Below the pieces are notes generated by a model. That model was not told the DNA's origin, searched no databases, and worked only from the letters and a program-made list of their open reading frames with translations. A program made the position numbers and the translations under genes. DNA of 64,000 nt from Tenericutes bacterium MZ-XQ (GTDB taxonomy: Bacteria > Bacillota_I > Bacilli_A > Acholeplasmatales > Acholeplasmataceae), in the NCBI GenBank assembly GCA_002838205.1, contig CP017950.1:186001-250000 (forward strand), in the 5' to 3' direction. Shown piece by piece: positions 3,539-10,762 of the stretch. Numbering within the stretch: the first letter of the stretch is position 1; every line of letters starts with the position of its first letter.

Positions 3539-4618
3539 ATGATGCAAGCAATAAAACAAACAAGTCCTTATATTCGTAAAGACATAAGTACAAAACGTAT
3601 GATGACTGATGTTTTGATTGCCCTAATGCCAGTAGTAATCTTTTCGATTTATCGATTTGGCTGGGATGCGGTAGTTAGAATTTTAGTATCATTAGTTGTG
3701 ATGATAGGTTTAGAAGCTGTTGCTTTTGGTATGATGCAAAAACCAAAAAAAGCAGATAAGTGGATAGAAAGATTAAAATCAAGATACGAAAAATATACAA
3801 TCAATAACATAACAGCTCCTGCTGTAAGTGCAATTATATTTGCAATGATCATTCCATCTAAGTTACCAATTTATGCGGTAGTTATGGGTGCTGCATTCGG
3901 TATTATTGTTGCTAAAATGCTATTTGGTGGTATGGGTTCAAACATCTTCAATATTGCTGCTGCTGGACGTATTTTTATCGGTCTTGCTTTAGCTGATATG
4001 TTTACTGGCAAATATGTCGGTGTGGATATGATTGCTGGTGGTACAGCTTTAACCGCAATTAGAACTGGCGCTGGATTTCCATATACACTGAACAGTTATC
4101 CGCTATTAGATATGTTTTTGGGAAATATCCCAGGATCTATGGGTGAAATTAGTGCGTTAGCTATTTTAATTGGTATGGTTTATTTATTAATTAGAAGATC
4201 TGCTGACTATAGAGTCATTGTTTCATCTTTAGTTACATTTGTAGTGCTGATGCTTATTGCAGGACTAAAACTATATCCTGATCAAGCAATGGATTATATG
4301 TTATTCCACTTATTCTCAGGTGGTATTCTATTTGGAGCTGTATTCATGATTACCGATCCAGTAACATCTCCAGTTACAAGACCAGGTAGATGGATTTATG
4401 GTTTATTAGTTGCTTCACTTGTTGTAATTATTAGATTGTTCGGTGCTTATCCAGAGGGAGTTGCCTTTGCATTACTATTCTCAAATATGTTTGTGCCACT
4501 CATTGATTACCCACAATGGGCAACCAATAAGTTTAAACCGAGTTTCTTTATTGGTTATGGTGTCGCATTTGTCGCATTAGCCCTCATTGTATACTTTGGT
4601 GTAGGAGGTGCTGTATAA
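3539..4618 (+). CDS. rnfD: Rnf electron transport complex subunit RnfD
   Basis: Integral membrane subunit, NqrB/RnfD family, expected to carry a covalently bound FMN and to take part in ion transport. The 359 residues contain about ten hydrophobic segments and family motifs such as NITAPAVSAIIFA, FNIAAAGRIF and FMITDPVTSPVT. The expected flavin attachment motif Dxx(S/T)GAT appears as D163-M-I-A-G-G-T169, so the threonine is kept but the serine/threonine and alanine are replaced by alanine and glycine. The start follows AGGATGAG, and the stop overlaps the rnfG start (TAATG). Confidence 0.95.
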   Translation: MMQAIKQTSPYIRKDISTKRMMTDVLIALMPVVIFSIYRFGWDAVVRILVSLVVMIGLEAVAFGMMQKPKKADKWIERLKSRYEKYTINNITAPAVSAIIFAMIIPSKLPIYAVVMGAAFGIIVAKMLFGGMGSNIFNIAAAGRIFIGLALADMFTGKYVGVDMIAGGTALTAIRTGAGFPYTLNSYPLLDMFLGNIPGSMGEISALAILIGMVYLLIRRSADYRVIVSSLVTFVVLMLIAGLKLYPDQAMDYMLFHLFSGGILFGAVFMITDPVTSPVTRPGRWIYGLLVASLVVIIRLFGAYPEGVAFALLFSNMFVPLIDYPQWATNKFKPSFFIGYGVAFVALALIVYFGVGGAV

Positions 4619-5592
4619 TGAAAAAATTATTTGAAAAGAAACCAATGCTTCATTACACGTTTGTACTAATGGTCATCTCTATTGCATGTGGTATTGTCAT
4701 TGGTGGTGTAAATGCAGTAACGGCTCCAGTCATTGCAGACAATTTATTAAAAGCAAAAGTTGAAGCATATGAAGAAGTATTACCAGGTATTGATACTTTT
4801 GATGAGATTGAAGTTACCGAGGATTATCCAACAAGCATACAAAGTATTGCTAAAGGATATAATGTAGGTAATGATGTCTTAGGCCATATTTATGAAGTTT
4901 ATGGAACAAATAGCTACGGAAAAATGACGATAGTTGTGAGTGTAGGTTTAGATGGTAAAATTATCGGTGCTCAATTTGTTACTATTGAACAAACATTGAA
5001 CGTTCCTGGAACGAGAACAAATCTATCTTTATATGTTGGCTCTAACATCACTGCTCTTGAGCCTAGTGGCGATTTTATTTCAGGTGCAACAGGTAGTTTA
5101 TCAACAGTGCAAGGGCTACTTGCAGATGTTGCAACCGCTCATGCTTTAACTGGTGGTGAAGTGATTGTTGATCCACTTGATGAGGCATATGGCGAAGGTT
5201 ATACATTAGAAGTTGATAATAGTTTTGTTTCAACTGACTATGTAACATCTAAATCAAATGTACTCCAAGGATCAAATGTTGTTGGTTATGTGTATAGTTT
5301 AACCGGCAGTGGCGATTATCAAGATGGTGAATCTGATAGTATTGTGATGAACATCTATTTTGATGCAGATGATAAAATTGTTAAAATCGATCTTCCAGCA
5401 GATAGTTACAATCACACAGGCGGAGGATTTAAAAATAAAAATATTGCATACTTAGAATTATTTATTGGTTTAGAAAAAGCAGATATTCAAGCAACAATTG
5501 ATGGTGCTGATTCAGATATCACTGCTGGAGCTTCAAATACTAACGCATTAATTGTAGAACTTTTAGAAGCATTCTTAAGTGAGGTGGCATAA
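4618..5592 (+). CDS. rnfG: RnfG paralogue 1, two FMN-binding domains
   Basis: A membrane-anchored subunit with one N-terminal segment (about residues 13-35) and two extracytoplasmic FMN-binding domains; ordinary RnfG has one. Domain 1 ends with D152-F-I-S-G-A-T158-G-S, a full match to the ApbE flavinylation motif Dxx(S/T)GA(S/T)x(S/T). Domain 2 (about 220-324) ends with D300-I-T-A-G-A-S306-N-T, in which the residue before GA is alanine. Domain 2 is strongly similar to domain 2 of the next gene, sharing GYVYSLTGSG, YNH(T/S)GG, GASNT and LLEAF, so the two genes probably arose by duplication. The stop overlaps the region of the next ribosome site. Confidence 0.92.
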   Translation: MKKLFEKKPMLHYTFVLMVISIACGIVIGGVNAVTAPVIADNLLKAKVEAYEEVLPGIDTFDEIEVTEDYPTSIQSIAKGYNVGNDVLGHIYEVYGTNSYGKMTIVVSVGLDGKIIGAQFVTIEQTLNVPGTRTNLSLYVGSNITALEPSGDFISGATGSLSTVQGLLADVATAHALTGGEVIVDPLDEAYGEGYTLEVDNSFVSTDYVTSKSNVLQGSNVVGYVYSLTGSGDYQDGESDSIVMNIYFDADDKIVKIDLPADSYNHTGGGFKNKNIAYLELFIGLEKADIQATIDGADSDITAGASNTNALIVELLEAFLSEVA

Positions 5593-5593
5593 T

Positions 5594-6604
5594 ATGAAAA
5601 GAGAAAATTTATTATTACTTATTAATTTCTCAATTATGGCACTGATTGGTCTTGTATTTATTTTGATATATCAAAGTAATGTAATGATCGATGTTGAGGA
5701 CCAATTGTTTAACCAAAAAGTTGAACTTGTTGATGGTACTAAGTTAGCTACATTACCACAAATGTCAGAGAACTCATCAAATTTTTCGATGGTTGATATG
5801 AAATGGAACGCTGTTGACAAAAACGATGAAAAAGTTGGTACTGTCTATCATGCAGTCATCAAGAATAGTTTTACATTATCTGGATCTGGTCTTGATTATG
5901 GACTCATTGAATTACTTATAGGTTTTAGTGAAGATGATAAAGTTTATGTTGAGTACATAGGTGTTTATCAGTCACAATGGGCAATTGTTGGTATTCAAAA
6001 ATATATTCAAGATTATTATAATGGTGTAGATATTTTATCGATACAAGGTATCCCAAGTTTTGATGCAGATATCGTTGCAGGGGCTACAGAAAATCCTGCA
6101 AATGTTTCAACTGATCAAATTAAAGAAATCGTTATGAAAGCTTTAATTCTTGAATATCCAGAGTTAGAAGAAGTTAATCCTTATGAAGAATTATTTGGGA
6201 TTGAGAATTATCAATTTGAAGATGATGCAACATTTGTTGTTACTGAACATGTAACAGATAAGAGAATTGTTACTGATGGAACAAATCAAATTGGTTATGT
6301 TTATAGTCTAACTGGTAGTGGTGAATATCAAGGTGGTGACGATGCTAGCATTGTCATTGAGATTGTGTTTGGTTCTGATGATACAATTTTAGGATTTGTT
6401 CTACCAGAGGAAACATATAATCATTCAGGTGGATCATTCAAGTCTAAAAATGAAGAATACTTAGAAAATTATATTGGTTTATTAATTAGTGAAATTCAAG
6501 CAGAAGTTGATGCTGGAAATTCAACTGATGTAACAAGTGGTGCTTCAAATACAAGAGCGTTAATTGACGAACTCTTAGAAGCATTCGTAAGCGAGGTGAA
6601 TTAA
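5594..6604 (+). CDS. RnfG paralogue 2, two FMN-binding domains
   Basis: A second RnfG-like protein of 336 residues with one N-terminal membrane segment (about 7-27) and two FMN-binding-like domains. The ATG at 5594 is preferred over an upstream GTG-type start because GAGGTGG lies just before it. The first domain carries D159-I-V-A-G-A-T165-E-N, degenerate at two positions of the flavinylation motif; the second carries D312-V-T-S-G-A-S318-N-T, a full match with serine as acceptor. The intact and degenerate sites are thus the mirror image of those in paralogue 1. Domain 1 is much more diverged than domain 2. Co-transcribed in the rnf operon. Confidence 0.88.
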   Translation: MKRENLLLLINFSIMALIGLVFILIYQSNVMIDVEDQLFNQKVELVDGTKLATLPQMSENSSNFSMVDMKWNAVDKNDEKVGTVYHAVIKNSFTLSGSGLDYGLIELLIGFSEDDKVYVEYIGVYQSQWAIVGIQKYIQDYYNGVDILSIQGIPSFDADIVAGATENPANVSTDQIKEIVMKALILEYPELEEVNPYEELFGIENYQFEDDATFVVTEHVTDKRIVTDGTNQIGYVYSLTGSGEYQGGDDASIVIEIVFGSDDTILGFVLPEETYNHSGGSFKSKNEEYLENYIGLLISEIQAEVDAGNSTDVTSGASNTRALIDELLEAFVSEVN

Positions 6605-7310: not shown

Positions 7311-7888
7311 TGGAATTATTAGCAATATTAATATCATCAATGTTAATCAATAACATTGTACTCATGCAATTCTTAGGTTTATGTTCTTTCTTTGGGGTTT
7401 CTACAAAGATGAAGTCTGTTGTAGGTATGGGATTAGCGGTTATTGTAGTTATATTTTTAGCAGCGTTGATCACATATCCAATTTACAAATATGTTTTAGT
7501 TGAGCTTAATATCACTTATATTGATACGATTGCATTTATTTTAGTAATTGCATCACTTGTGCAATTAACAGAGCTTGTCATCAAACGTGTAAGTAAGAGT
7601 TTATATAAAGCTCTAGGTGTTTACCTACCTTTGATTGCAACTAACTGTGCTGTATTAGGTGTAGCTTTAAATAACGTGTCTGATATTCAAAATACAACTT
7701 ATCCTGAAGCACTTATGTATGCATTAGGATCTGGGTTAGGATTTGCATTTATTATTATCACATTTACTGCAATCCGTTTAAGATTAGATAGTGCAAATGT
7801 GCCTAAAGCACTAAAAGGTATGCCAATCGCATTGGTTACTGCAGGGCTTATGGCGTTAGCTTTTATGGGCCTTTCAGGTATTATCTAA
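7310..7888 (+). CDS. rnfA: Rnf electron transport complex subunit RnfA
   Basis: Integral membrane subunit paired with RnfE. The 192 residues show the family signature NNIVLMQFLGLCSFFGVS near the N-terminus and LPLIATNCAVLGVAL mid-protein; the two cysteines in these inverted halves are the ligands for the membrane iron-sulfur cluster in characterised Rnf/Nqr complexes. Six hydrophobic segments are visible. Both ends overlap neighbours by a TAATG junction, so rnfE, rnfA and the next small gene are tightly coupled. Confidence 0.96.
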   Translation: MELLAILISSMLINNIVLMQFLGLCSFFGVSTKMKSVVGMGLAVIVVIFLAALITYPIYKYVLVELNITYIDTIAFILVIASLVQLTELVIKRVSKSLYKALGVYLPLIATNCAVLGVALNNVSDIQNTTYPEALMYALGSGLGFAFIIITFTAIRLRLDSANVPKALKGMPIALVTAGLMALAFMGLSGII

Positions 7889-8103
7889 TGCCTATTACTC
7901 AATTATTAATTTTAATGGGTATTTTAATTGGAATTATTGGTATCTACGTTGGCACAATGTGGTTAAACAATAAAGTTGAAATACCTGAAGAGTGTAGAGA
8001 AGCATATTTAGAGGCGCAATCTTGCGAATCGTGTGCTTCAAGAGACGGTGGAAGTTGTGGATTTAGTGATGCACTTGAATTCATGAAGGAGGTCAAACTA
8101 TGA
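7888..8103 (+). CDS. Small four-cysteine membrane protein in the rnf operon
   Basis: A 71-residue protein with one hydrophobic segment (about residues 5-26) followed by a short soluble tail holding exactly four cysteines: C36, C46, C49 and C57 (PEECREAY ... CESCASRDGGSCGF). The layout, one anchor then four cysteines, resembles that of the RnfB encoded immediately downstream, but the sequence is not a recognised RnfB domain. It overlaps rnfA by one base and rnfB by four (ATGA), so it is firmly part of the operon. An iron-sulfur or metal-binding role is inference. I do not recognise the family. It could also be an assembly factor. Confidence 0.8.
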   Translation: MPITQLLILMGILIGIIGIYVGTMWLNNKVEIPEECREAYLEAQSCESCASRDGGSCGFSDALEFMKEVKL

Positions 8104-8420
8104 TAGAAGCATTATATCCATTCATGGTTTTAGGCGTACTTGGTGCGCTTATGGGTGTAACATTATCACTTGCAAATAAATATTTAACAGTGGTGGAAGA
8201 CCCTAGAATTAATGAGATAGAAAAATTGTTACCTAATTACAATTGTGGTGCATGTGGTACGCCAGGATGTCATGCATTTGCGGAAGGCATTGTTAATGGC
8301 GAAGTTAAAAATTTGGCAAGATGTAAACCGGGAAAAGCTGATAAGCACTTCAATCCTATTTTAGAGTATATTAAAGATCATCCAAATTCAGATGGATCTA
8401 CTATTGGGGTAAAGATTTAG
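8100..8420 (+). CDS. rnfB: Shortened RnfB (anchor plus one Fe-S domain)
   Basis: RnfB normally accepts electrons from ferredoxin through several clusters. This version is only 106 residues: an N-terminal membrane segment (about 6-24) and one Fe-S domain with C49-GA-C52-GTPG-C57 and C75 (the CxxCxxxxC...C pattern). The two C-terminal ferredoxin-type [4Fe-4S] motifs found in ordinary RnfB are absent: translation ends with TAG at 8418-8420 and a terminator hairpin follows at once. The gene therefore looks complete rather than frameshifted. It overlaps the preceding small gene by four bases. Confidence 0.9.
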   Translation: MIEALYPFMVLGVLGALMGVTLSLANKYLTVVEDPRINEIEKLLPNYNCGACGTPGCHAFAEGIVNGEVKNLARCKPGKADKHFNPILEYIKDHPNSDGSTIGVKI

Positions 8421-8461: not shown

Positions 8462-8490
8462 ATTAAAGGACAAAGAAACGGGTGATTTAC

Positions 8491-9765
8491 ATGAAAAAAA
8501 TAATAAGTGTGGGGCTAATATTAATTAGCATTTTCATGCTATCAGGATGTCAATCTAAAAAAATGTATACATTTAATTTTTATGATTATATGGATACATA
8601 TATAAGAGTTCAAATGATGGCTTCAAGTGAATCTGATGCGAATCAATATCATGATGATATCGATGCTATTTTTAGCATGTATCATGATTTATCAACTTCA
8701 TATGAACCTCTAGATGATGATTCAGAATATCTAGAAAATGTGTTTTCAATGAACCAAAATATTGGTCAACGCCTAGAAATAGATCAAGCATTATATGACT
8801 TATTGGTTTATGCAGAAGAAATTAAAGATATGACTAATGGCTATTTTGATATAACTATTGGTAAAGCTGTTGACGTATGGAAAGATGTTATGGATAATCA
8901 GGTTGATGGCTTTAAAATAGGCGACAATATTTATGTTTATCATTACTATGATGGCGACAAAAAAGAAGATAATAAAATTTTAGTAAATCAAACAGGTGTA
9001 ATTGAATCAATTGAAACTGATGAAGAAGATGAATCAATTGTATTAAGTGTTACACTTAGTGTTGGTGATCAGACGATTACCATAGACAAAGATGATGCAT
9101 ATAAAAAAGAGATTTCTAAATCTTTATATGATCAAGCCATTGAAAATATAAACGCTTTAGATTTTAGTGAAAATGCAATCGTGTTAGAAGAAGAACAAGG
9201 GAAATATTTTGTTACTTTATCCGGTGATGATATCAAAGTTGATTTAGGAGCAATTTCAAAAGGCTATGCAACACAAAAAGTATATGAATATATAGAATCA
9301 TTACAGATTAGAAACTTTTCAATATCATCAGGAACTAGTTCCATTATTTTAGGTGAAAATCAAAATAGAGCTGATGAAGATTTTGTTTTCTATGTTGCAC
9401 TAGCAAATCCATATCAAACAGAAATATTGGATAAAGATACTTATGGAACTGTTAAAGTTAAAAATATGAGTGTGACAACAAGTGGTAATTACGAACAATA
9501 TGTTTTATATCAAGGTTATAGATACCATCATATTGTTTCACCTTTTGAAAAAATGCCTGTACAATATTATCATACTGTAACTATATTGGGTGAAGATGCA
9601 GGGCTACTAGACGCTTTATCTACTGCATTGTTCTCAATGTCGCCAGAGGTTATGGAAAACTGGTTGGCAGATTATCAAGAATCATTGAATATTGAAGTGA
9701 TAAGATTTAATCAAGATTTAACAGTTGATACCTTCTTATATGATACTGAATTTGAGGAGCACTGA
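8491..9765 (+). CDS. apbE: FAD:protein FMN transferase (ApbE), lipoprotein
   Basis: Extracytoplasmic Mg-dependent enzyme that transfers FMN from FAD to Ser/Thr of RnfG/NqrC-type proteins. The ATG at 8491 is chosen over the in-frame GTG at 8482, since it directly begins a lipoprotein signal (MKK start, lipobox LSGC with Cys20) and GGTGAT lies just before it. Family motifs: GYFDITIGKAVDVWK, DLGAISKGYA (251-260), YRYHHIVSP and LLDALSTALF. The usual GG(N/D)I glycine motif reads SSGTSSI. At 424 residues it is about 75 longer than usual, the excess being a charged insertion at about 137-210. Neighbouring Rnf subunits are the obvious substrates. Confidence 0.93.
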   Translation: MKKIISVGLILISIFMLSGCQSKKMYTFNFYDYMDTYIRVQMMASSESDANQYHDDIDAIFSMYHDLSTSYEPLDDDSEYLENVFSMNQNIGQRLEIDQALYDLLVYAEEIKDMTNGYFDITIGKAVDVWKDVMDNQVDGFKIGDNIYVYHYYDGDKKEDNKILVNQTGVIESIETDEEDESIVLSVTLSVGDQTITIDKDDAYKKEISKSLYDQAIENINALDFSENAIVLEEEQGKYFVTLSGDDIKVDLGAISKGYATQKVYEYIESLQIRNFSISSGTSSIILGENQNRADEDFVFYVALANPYQTEILDKDTYGTVKVKNMSVTTSGNYEQYVLYQGYRYHHIVSPFEKMPVQYYHTVTILGEDAGLLDALSTALFSMSPEVMENWLADYQESLNIEVIRFNQDLTVDTFLYDTEFEEH

Positions 9766-9770
9766 TTCAA

Positions 9771-10247
9771 ATGACAGGAACAAGAAATAGTACTAATAAA
9801 AGAGATATTTTATTAATTGCTATCCTTCTACTTATTGTAGGCGGCCTTTTCCTGTATTTTCAAGTTTTCCAGACTTCAGGAGAGGCAAATTATGCACATA
9901 TTTATTATGGTACTTCTGATGATCCAATTGTGACAATAGATTTTGTAAAAAATGAAGTTGTAAAATACAATGATCAACAAGTGCCGGATTCATATGGCAC
10001 TTTTCCAATCATTGATGAAGGTCAAAGAACTGTTACATTGCTCGGAGATTACGAAATCAACGGAATTAGACAAATAGTTGTTATAGAATATGACTTTGGT
10101 CTAAAAACCGTTCAAATTATAGAGGAAGAAAGTCCGAATCATATTTGTAGTAGAGAAGGCATATCTACAGGTAAACCTTTAATCTGCTTACCAAACAGAG
10201 TTAGAGTCGAGTTTGAAACAAATGATGATGCTGATTTCACAGTATAG
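9771..10247 (+). CDS. NusG domain II-like membrane-anchored protein
   Basis: A 158-residue protein with one N-terminal membrane segment (about residues 14-34) and an extracytoplasmic beta-rich domain. The pattern (hydrophobic strand, turn, strand, then ICSREGISTGKPLICLPNRVRVEF) resembles the NusG_II family, small secreted domains often encoded between ApbE and a Gx-type membrane protein in Firmicutes. The CLPN motif near the end is characteristic. It starts 5 bases after the apbE stop and lies 2 bases before the next gene, so the three form one unit. Function is unknown; a part in flavin or redox metabolism is inferred from context only. Confidence 0.8.
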   Translation: MTGTRNSTNKRDILLIAILLLIVGGLFLYFQVFQTSGEANYAHIYYGTSDDPIVTIDFVKNEVVKYNDQQVPDSYGTFPIIDEGQRTVTLLGDYEINGIRQIVVIEYDFGLKTVQIIEEESPNHICSREGISTGKPLICLPNRVRVEFETNDDADFTV

Positions 10248-10249
10248 AT

Positions 10250-10762
10250 ATGAAACAAACAAGAAAGATGATATTGCTAGCAAATTTTTTGGCAATCGCA
10301 ATCGTTTTAAACTTAATAGAATCAGCATTAGCATTAACACCGGTACCAGGTGCTAAACTAGGATTTGCAAACGTGATTACACTGATCATTCTTTATGTAT
10401 ACACCTTTAAAGATAGCACTGCACTGACATTATTAAGGGTTGTCTTGGTAGGACTCTTAAGTGGAAGATTACTAGGACCTACTTTTTATATGAGTTTGAG
10501 TGGAGCTGCTGCATCTATTATTGCTATGGGAGTACTCAAAAAAACGAATTTTTTTGGTATCCTAGGAGTAAGTGTTGTTGGATCTATTTTCCATGTGTTT
10601 GGACAAATAGGTGCTGGGATTTTTGTCATTGGTAGTACAGCCATTATTTATTGGATGCCGCTGATGTTATTACTCAGTATTCCTGCTGGTGTTATCACAG
10701 GTCTTATCGGTAAAAGATTTATATCTGTATGGGACACTTGGCACAATAAATTTGAGAATTAA
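10250..10762 (+). CDS. Gx transporter family membrane protein
   Basis: A 170-residue integral membrane protein with about five hydrophobic segments. The motifs NLIESALALTPVPGAKLGFANVI and LRVVLVGLLSG fit the Gx transporter family (also named heptaprenyl diphosphate synthase component I), related in fold to ECF substrate-binding components. In many Firmicutes it sits beside apbE and a NusG_II protein, as here, which suggests a role in supplying a substrate for flavin or quinone chemistry, although this is unproven. It is the last gene of the apbE unit and no terminator is evident before the rpmE promoter. Confidence 0.85.
   Translation: MKQTRKMILLANFLAIAIVLNLIESALALTPVPGAKLGFANVITLIILYVYTFKDSTALTLLRVVLVGLLSGRLLGPTFYMSLSGAAASIIAMGVLKKTNFFGILGVSVVGSIFHVFGQIGAGIFVIGSTAIIYWMPLMLLLSIPAGVITGLIGKRFISVWDTWHNKFEN

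Follow-up and report, generated by a model that had tools for sequence, protein, structure and literature searches.

Tandem two-domain RnfG proteins in the Rnf cluster of an Acholeplasmataceae bacterium and its relatives: a probable outward extension of the complex by covalent flavins

The canonical RnfG subunits of Clostridium tetanomorphum and Acetobacterium woodii (7zc6_G, 9eri_G) are each encoded by one gene and consist of a transmembrane (TM) helix and one FMN domain carrying one FMN. The flavin transferase ApbE attaches FMN to the C-terminal (last) Ser/Thr of the motif D-x-x-[S/T]-G-A-[S/T] (PMC12052999). RNF clusters with multi-flavinylated RnfGs have been described and proposed to provide a second electron exit (Meheust et al. 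2021, PMC8238504), so that both the protein type and the exit idea are already known, and proteins that bind three and four FMNs covalently have been produced and measured (PMC10339131). Published RnfBs hold two to seven [4Fe-4S] clusters in C-terminal ferredoxin domains (PMC12174285). A genome of the group studied here was reported as carrying a complete Rnf (PMC11122141).

We analysed a window of 64,000 nucleotides from Tenericutes bacterium MZ-XQ (contig CP017950.1, positions 186,001 to 250,000 of the forward strand), a wall-less bacterium with a genome of 2.16 Mb on one contig (G000). Open reading frames combined with Pfam and NCBIfam matches gave the operon order rnfC-rnfD-rnfG1-rnfG2-rnfE-rnfA-X-rnfB-apbE-NusG_II (Table 1). 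As a preliminary description of this DNA had stated, the stretch 4618-6604 holds two adjacent genes, both confirmed as open reading frames, and both lie between rnfD and rnfE, the place expected of a gene for an RnfG subunit. The start of rnfG2 is the ATG at 5594, as the listed GTG at 5579 falls within rnfG1. Its ribosome site, GAGGTGG, sits in the final rnfG1 codons (...agt gag gtg gca taa), and this sharing may explain why RnfG1 and related proteins end in ...SEV. A promoter and terminator scan gave nothing usable, promoter-like sites occurring at chance level. The small multi-TM protein at the end of the table is the same neighbour in three related loci (L046, L042, and L052). The window ApbE is about 70 residues longer than many of its relatives (355-370 aa); the extra residues seem to be inserted at about 143-225 and are also found in the rest of the genus.

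Table 1. Features of the Rnf cluster, in window coordinates
Feature	Position	Strand	Evidence or detail
rnfC, NADH/FMN/2x[4Fe-4S] subunit, 432 aa	2231..3529	+	TIGR01945 E 1.3e-91, above cut-off
rnfD, 359 aa	3539..4618	+	TIGR01946 E 2.5e-69, above cut-off
Predicted FMN site DMIAGGT in rnfD	4025-4045	+	motif
rnfG1, first RnfG, 324 aa: TM helix, then two FMN domains	4618..5592	+	
rnfG1 FMN domain 1 (canonical RnfG domain)	4765..5142	+	acceptor Thr158, DFISGAT 5071-5091
rnfG1 FMN domain 2	5173..5586	+	acceptor Ser306, DITAGAS 5515-5535
rnfG2, second RnfG, 336 aa: TM helix, then two FMN domains	5594..6604	+	
rnfG2 FMN domain 1 (diverged, subunit-specific)	5693..6151	+	acceptor Thr165 (336-aa numbering), DIVAGAT 6068-6088
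rnfG2 FMN domain 2	6179..6598	+	acceptor Ser318, DVTSGAS 6527-6547
rnfE, 234 aa	6606..7310	+	TIGR01948, above cut-off
rnfA, 192 aa	7310..7888	+	TIGR01943 E 6e-68, just below cut-off
X, 71 aa, one TM helix and four conserved Cys	7888..8103	+	
Short rnfB, 106 aa: TM helix and one [4Fe-4S] (FdI) domain only	8100..8420	+	Pfam FeS E 3.6e-12
apbE flavin transferase, 427 aa, lipoprotein-type start	8482..9765	+	Pfam ApbE E 2.6e-44
NusG_II-domain membrane protein, conserved neighbour	9771..10247	+	Pfam NusG_II E 6.8e-9
Small multi-TM protein, a conserved neighbour that by eye resembles a transporter	10250..10762	+	ORF

The preliminary description assigned two FMN domains to each protein and suggested a search with the Pfam family FMN_bind. 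That family barely detected RnfG1 (E 1e-4) and had no match in RnfG2; with one call in the first protein and none in the second, Pfam and NCBIfam alone were too insensitive to serve as a domain count. The assignment itself held up with a profile of our own, seeded with second domains only and then iterated over all relatives. It found exactly two domains in RnfG1 (residues 50-175, E 2e-32, and 186-323, E 1e-37) and exactly two in RnfG2 (39-191, E 1e-25, and 201-340, E 1e-36, in a 341-aa numbering), with E-values that are flattering because the RnfG1 and RnfG2 sequences are themselves within the profile.

Comparison of folds agreed with this count in RnfG2 and, for the first domain, in RnfG1. 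AlphaFold2 models of both proteins (pLDDT 81) were compared by domain with the PDB using VIA. Residues 1-180 of the RnfG1 model matched RnfG 9eri_G over the whole length (Z 17.1), and in the RnfG2 model residues 32-192 matched 9eri_G (Z 11.0) and residues 193-336 matched 7zc6_G (Z 11.2). Domain 1 of RnfG1 aligns full length with canonical RnfG, its profile finds the C. tetanomorphum protein 7zc6_G with E 6e-20, and it is an orthodox RnfG. For domain 2 of RnfG1 the model's own structural matches were weaker ones only; its assignment as a putative FMN domain rests on its identity to domain 2 of RnfG2 (55%) and on our profile. Foldseek with the whole of RnfG2 returned weak E-values only (7zc6_G, 0.009, prob 1.00), a weakness that the comparison by domain resolved, and a PDB sequence search with the RnfG2 profile found no relative. 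IscU-like folds also matched the domains and were set aside as sharing a common arrangement, the RnfG matches ranking higher and covering more residues. In the models both proteins show the make-up of an RnfG subunit, an N-terminal TM helix leading into the RnfG/NqrC FMN fold. The NCBIfam rnfG model TIGR01947 gave 34.1 bits for RnfG1 and no match for RnfG2, below a cut-off (102 bits) that is an annotation threshold and not a defining trait of RnfG. Their fold and context, though not this model, make RnfG1 and RnfG2 diverged members of RnfG; being RnfGs of an rnf cluster with two FMN domains each, they are of the multi-flavinylated type.

The same source read the four flavinylation motifs as complementary, one full and one degenerate motif per protein in reversed order. 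On our alignments this reading fails. The acceptor Thr or Ser is intact in all four window domains; two of them match the full motif (DFISGAT and DVTSGAS), and in the remaining two position 4 is Ala and the acceptor is kept. Replacement of the conserved Ser reportedly has only a minor effect. Among 135 alignable domains from about 35 genomes of the order, the motif varies at D, S/T, G, and A and is constant at the acceptor (Thr in 92, Ser in 43). Position 4 is most commonly Ala (59 domains), ahead of Ser (37), Thr (27), Gly (8), and Pro (4); Ala also stands there in the window RnfD, whose relatives mostly read AGAT or AGGT, and, in a profile alignment, in the RnfG of Azotobacter (DQFAGAT). Change of the motif Asp to Ala had minor effects only, according to a review (PMC12052999).

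Complementary active and dead sites, with two of the four domains flavinylated after a duplication, are for these reasons very improbable. The position-4 pattern behind the idea, S/A;A/S, is real in the window and recurs in the nearest relative, Tenericutes bacterium MO-XQ, but it changes within the genus to S/A;S/S (G084, G015) and A/-;S/A (G039). Such variation of the degenerate motifs among relatives had been named beforehand as evidence against the proposal, and because the A/S residues vary within the genus the pattern, as far as sequences can tell, is neither a conserved design nor evidence of dead sites. Some relatives do have truly eroded motifs (for example G008 in RnfG1 domain 2 and G049 in the first domains), so that presumably not every FMN domain is used in every relative. 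Since Ser is a poorer FMN acceptor than Thr (PMC12052999), flavinylation of the second domains may be incomplete.

We then considered how far the pair extends. RnfG2 matches were present in 36 of 100 genomes of the order, with clear matches in families f1 and f5, and at class level strong matches were confined to this order. The tandem rnfG pair is conserved in two families, the Acholeplasmataceae and a sister family. Among named relatives MO-XQ is the nearest, its RnfG2 being 84% identical at the single locus given by a contig search. In outgroup Bacilli and family f3 rnfG is a single gene that usually encodes one domain and, in long versions, 2, 4, or 8. Genus g2 has a single three-domain rnfG gene. 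Complete clusters with the pair encode three to six FMN domains, and never fewer than three among the complete clusters examined. The second domain has been lost from RnfG1 in two genomes (G039, G033) and from RnfG2 in two others (G094, G067), never from both proteins, and neither rnfG gene has been lost where a pair exists. Most clusters include apbE.

Within the window, the two first domains are 14% identical and the two second domains 55%, as against 18% between the domains of RnfG1 and 21% between those of RnfG2. The second domains had been called very alike, which is borne out; the duplication with division of labour deduced from this likeness does not hold in its details. A tree of 131 domains, built on few columns, does not have the form of a simple recent duplication. 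First domains fall into few, old, subunit-specific groups (4 and 5 label changes), whereas the later domains of RnfG1 and RnfG2 intermix genus by genus, with 17 label changes, at least 10 of which are forced by well-supported branches. In three example genomes the second domains are far closer to each other than to those of the best other genus (82% vs 46% in G025, 79% vs 45% in G013, and 73% vs 46% in G016); in g4, an Acholeplasma-like genus, they are not homogenised (25-33%). The grouping looks as if the second domain had repeatedly undergone conversion or re-duplication between neighbouring genes, which would be expected to produce it and is one candidate history.

Apparent exchange of this kind, together with the range of domain numbers and the loss of second domains in four genomes, could also mean that recombination merely adds and removes domains, affecting length or dosage with no redox role. 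We think this quite unlikely, as the acceptor is kept in every one of the 135 domains while other motif positions drift, no complete cluster falls below three domains, and paired genes are both retained.

The ferredoxin side of the complex is unusual as well. The window RnfB consists of the TM and FdI parts and lacks the C-terminal ferredoxin domains of a canonical Rnf. Across rnfB-bearing clusters of the order RnfB has 103-129 aa with these two parts only, and all RnfB matches in the order lie in open frames of at most 136 aa. Sampled Bacilli have short RnfBs too (including L112-L121), often accompanied by X. We dropped the idea that short RnfB with X is special to the window, both being widespread in these Bacilli. 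X matches no Pfam or NCBIfam family and is possibly an iron-sulfur partner of the short RnfB. RnfA and RnfE of the window have the four cysteines of the canonical iron-sulfur site, as do close relatives (in the closest, C46 and C129 of RnfE, C25 and C113 of RnfA), and in all rnfB-bearing clusters each of the two proteins keeps both cysteines.

Ten genomes from genera g4, g8, and g9 lack rnfB and X in the cluster, and RnfB is absent from them genome-wide. Their loci (L046, L047, L049, L051, L053, L055, L057, L042, L052, and L054) look like half an Rnf, with RnfC, RnfD, RnfG1, RnfG2, and apbE kept in 10/10. RnfE and RnfA homologues are recognisable Rnf-Nqr proteins in most cases tested, and those that could be read (RnfE in nine genomes, RnfA in seven) have no cysteine or, in three proteins, a single displaced one; the searches missed RnfA in G069 and G051 and both proteins in G063. 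A cysteine in the membrane helix of RnfG1 is also gone from the rnfB-less genomes and displaced in G045. A tree of RnfC and RnfD requires one or two losses of the ferredoxin branch. Because RnfB and, where readable, the cluster cysteines are gone, the flavin pair of these genomes would be unable to serve a ferredoxin-to-NAD loop.

A second, Nqr-like cluster with the order B-C-D-E-F and a 2Fe-2S NqrF is found at L095 3433-7226 (G000:C1, about 2.031-2.035 Mb) and at L089 3551-8810; NqrA was found in none of ten genomes searched. The NqrC of this cluster is long in G027 and its relatives, with several FMN domains (656 aa and four domains in G027).

The co-loss bears directly on the main rival of our interpretation, an Rnf with two shuttles in which RnfG1 serves RnfD and RnfG2 serves RnfA/RnfE, all flavins staying within the Fd:NAD loop and none exporting electrons. 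Canonical RnfG must travel between RnfA/RnfE and RnfD (PMC12174285), the old, subunit-specific first domains are what different docking partners would predict, and the window retains RnfB and every RnfA/RnfE cysteine. We nevertheless consider this arrangement unlikely. In the ten RnfB-less genomes, with readable RnfA/RnfE devoid of the cluster cysteines, RnfG2 persists with its acceptors, and the versions with five or six domains are left unexplained.

We favour the interpretation that RnfG1 and RnfG2 form a covalent-FMN relay that takes electrons from RnfC/RnfD out of the cell, and we hold it to be probable. The chain of several flavins in one complex that the preliminary description offered as an alternative is likely. 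Both proteins would be membrane-anchored, outward-facing flavoproteins of one Rnf complex, and the ApbE encoded downstream would place FMN on the last Ser/Thr of each of the four motifs, for a total of at most four covalent FMNs. Domain 1 of RnfG1 would act as an ordinary RnfG, exchanging electrons with RnfD and, where their cluster exists, with RnfA/RnfE; RnfG2 and the interchangeable second domains would lengthen the flavin path outward. Electrons supplied by NADH (via RnfC and RnfD) or by ferredoxin (via the short RnfB and RnfA/RnfE) could then leave to a putative extracellular acceptor, besides closing the Fd:NAD loop.

Most likely, then, the pair extends the outer face of Rnf by covalent flavins. 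Where the ferredoxin branch is present, as it is in the window, the pair could act as a further exit or as a buffer; without that branch, gene content suggests that the sole path left would run from NADH through RnfC, RnfD, and RnfG1/RnfG2 to the outside. The argument for export is drawn from the relatives and not from the window complex, which may be a normal Fd:NAD pump with the extra flavins as a side feature, because RnfB, X, and all four cysteines are kept.

The RNF clusters of PMC8238504 likewise have RnfGs with more than one FMN domain, and some contain several multi-FMN proteins; they differ from the present clusters, which have two tandem two-domain genes, second domains grouping by genus, and loss of the ferredoxin branch. 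CbFMN4 and SaFMN3 (PMC10339131) also carry FMN domains in series, and the folds match (8p2b, 8p2a); those are single proteins, whereas here flavinylation is predicted and the domains belong to a pair of Rnf subunits. If export holds, the route from NADH through an NqrB/RnfD-type subunit to an outward flavoprotein would resemble that of the Nqr/Rnf-like two-subunit NAD(P)H exporters (PMC10979944), in which the NAD-binding domain is fused and RnfC is absent. The present clusters differ in that RnfC is kept and RnfA/RnfE without cysteines persist in some relatives. As far as the open-access papers searched show, three things are new: a tandem pair that is a family trait, genus-grouped second domains, and co-loss of the ferredoxin branch. 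In PMC11122141 six rnf genes of a relative are listed, and their accession run skips two numbers (39 and 42), which would fit RnfG2 and X having been passed over. Our search of the open literature on acholeplasma NADH oxidase or on Rnf without RnfB returned nothing relevant.

For annotation, our results suggest that Ala at position 4 of a flavinylation motif should not be taken as a dead site. They also stand in contrast to the label "complete Rnf", as the RnfB of the order is far shorter than the RnfBs studied and, on gene content, some relatives would be unable to run the Fd:NAD reaction. The clusters offer a natural series of one to six RnfG domains, with and without the ferredoxin branch, for testing electron exit from Rnf. 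We tentatively suggest, as a history that has slightly less than an even chance of being right, that the Rnf of this order was turned outward, the multi-FMN RnfG tandem coming first and the ferredoxin half being dropped later in Acholeplasma-like genera. If this is true, the resulting half-Rnf could contribute to membrane NADH oxidation in acholeplasmas.
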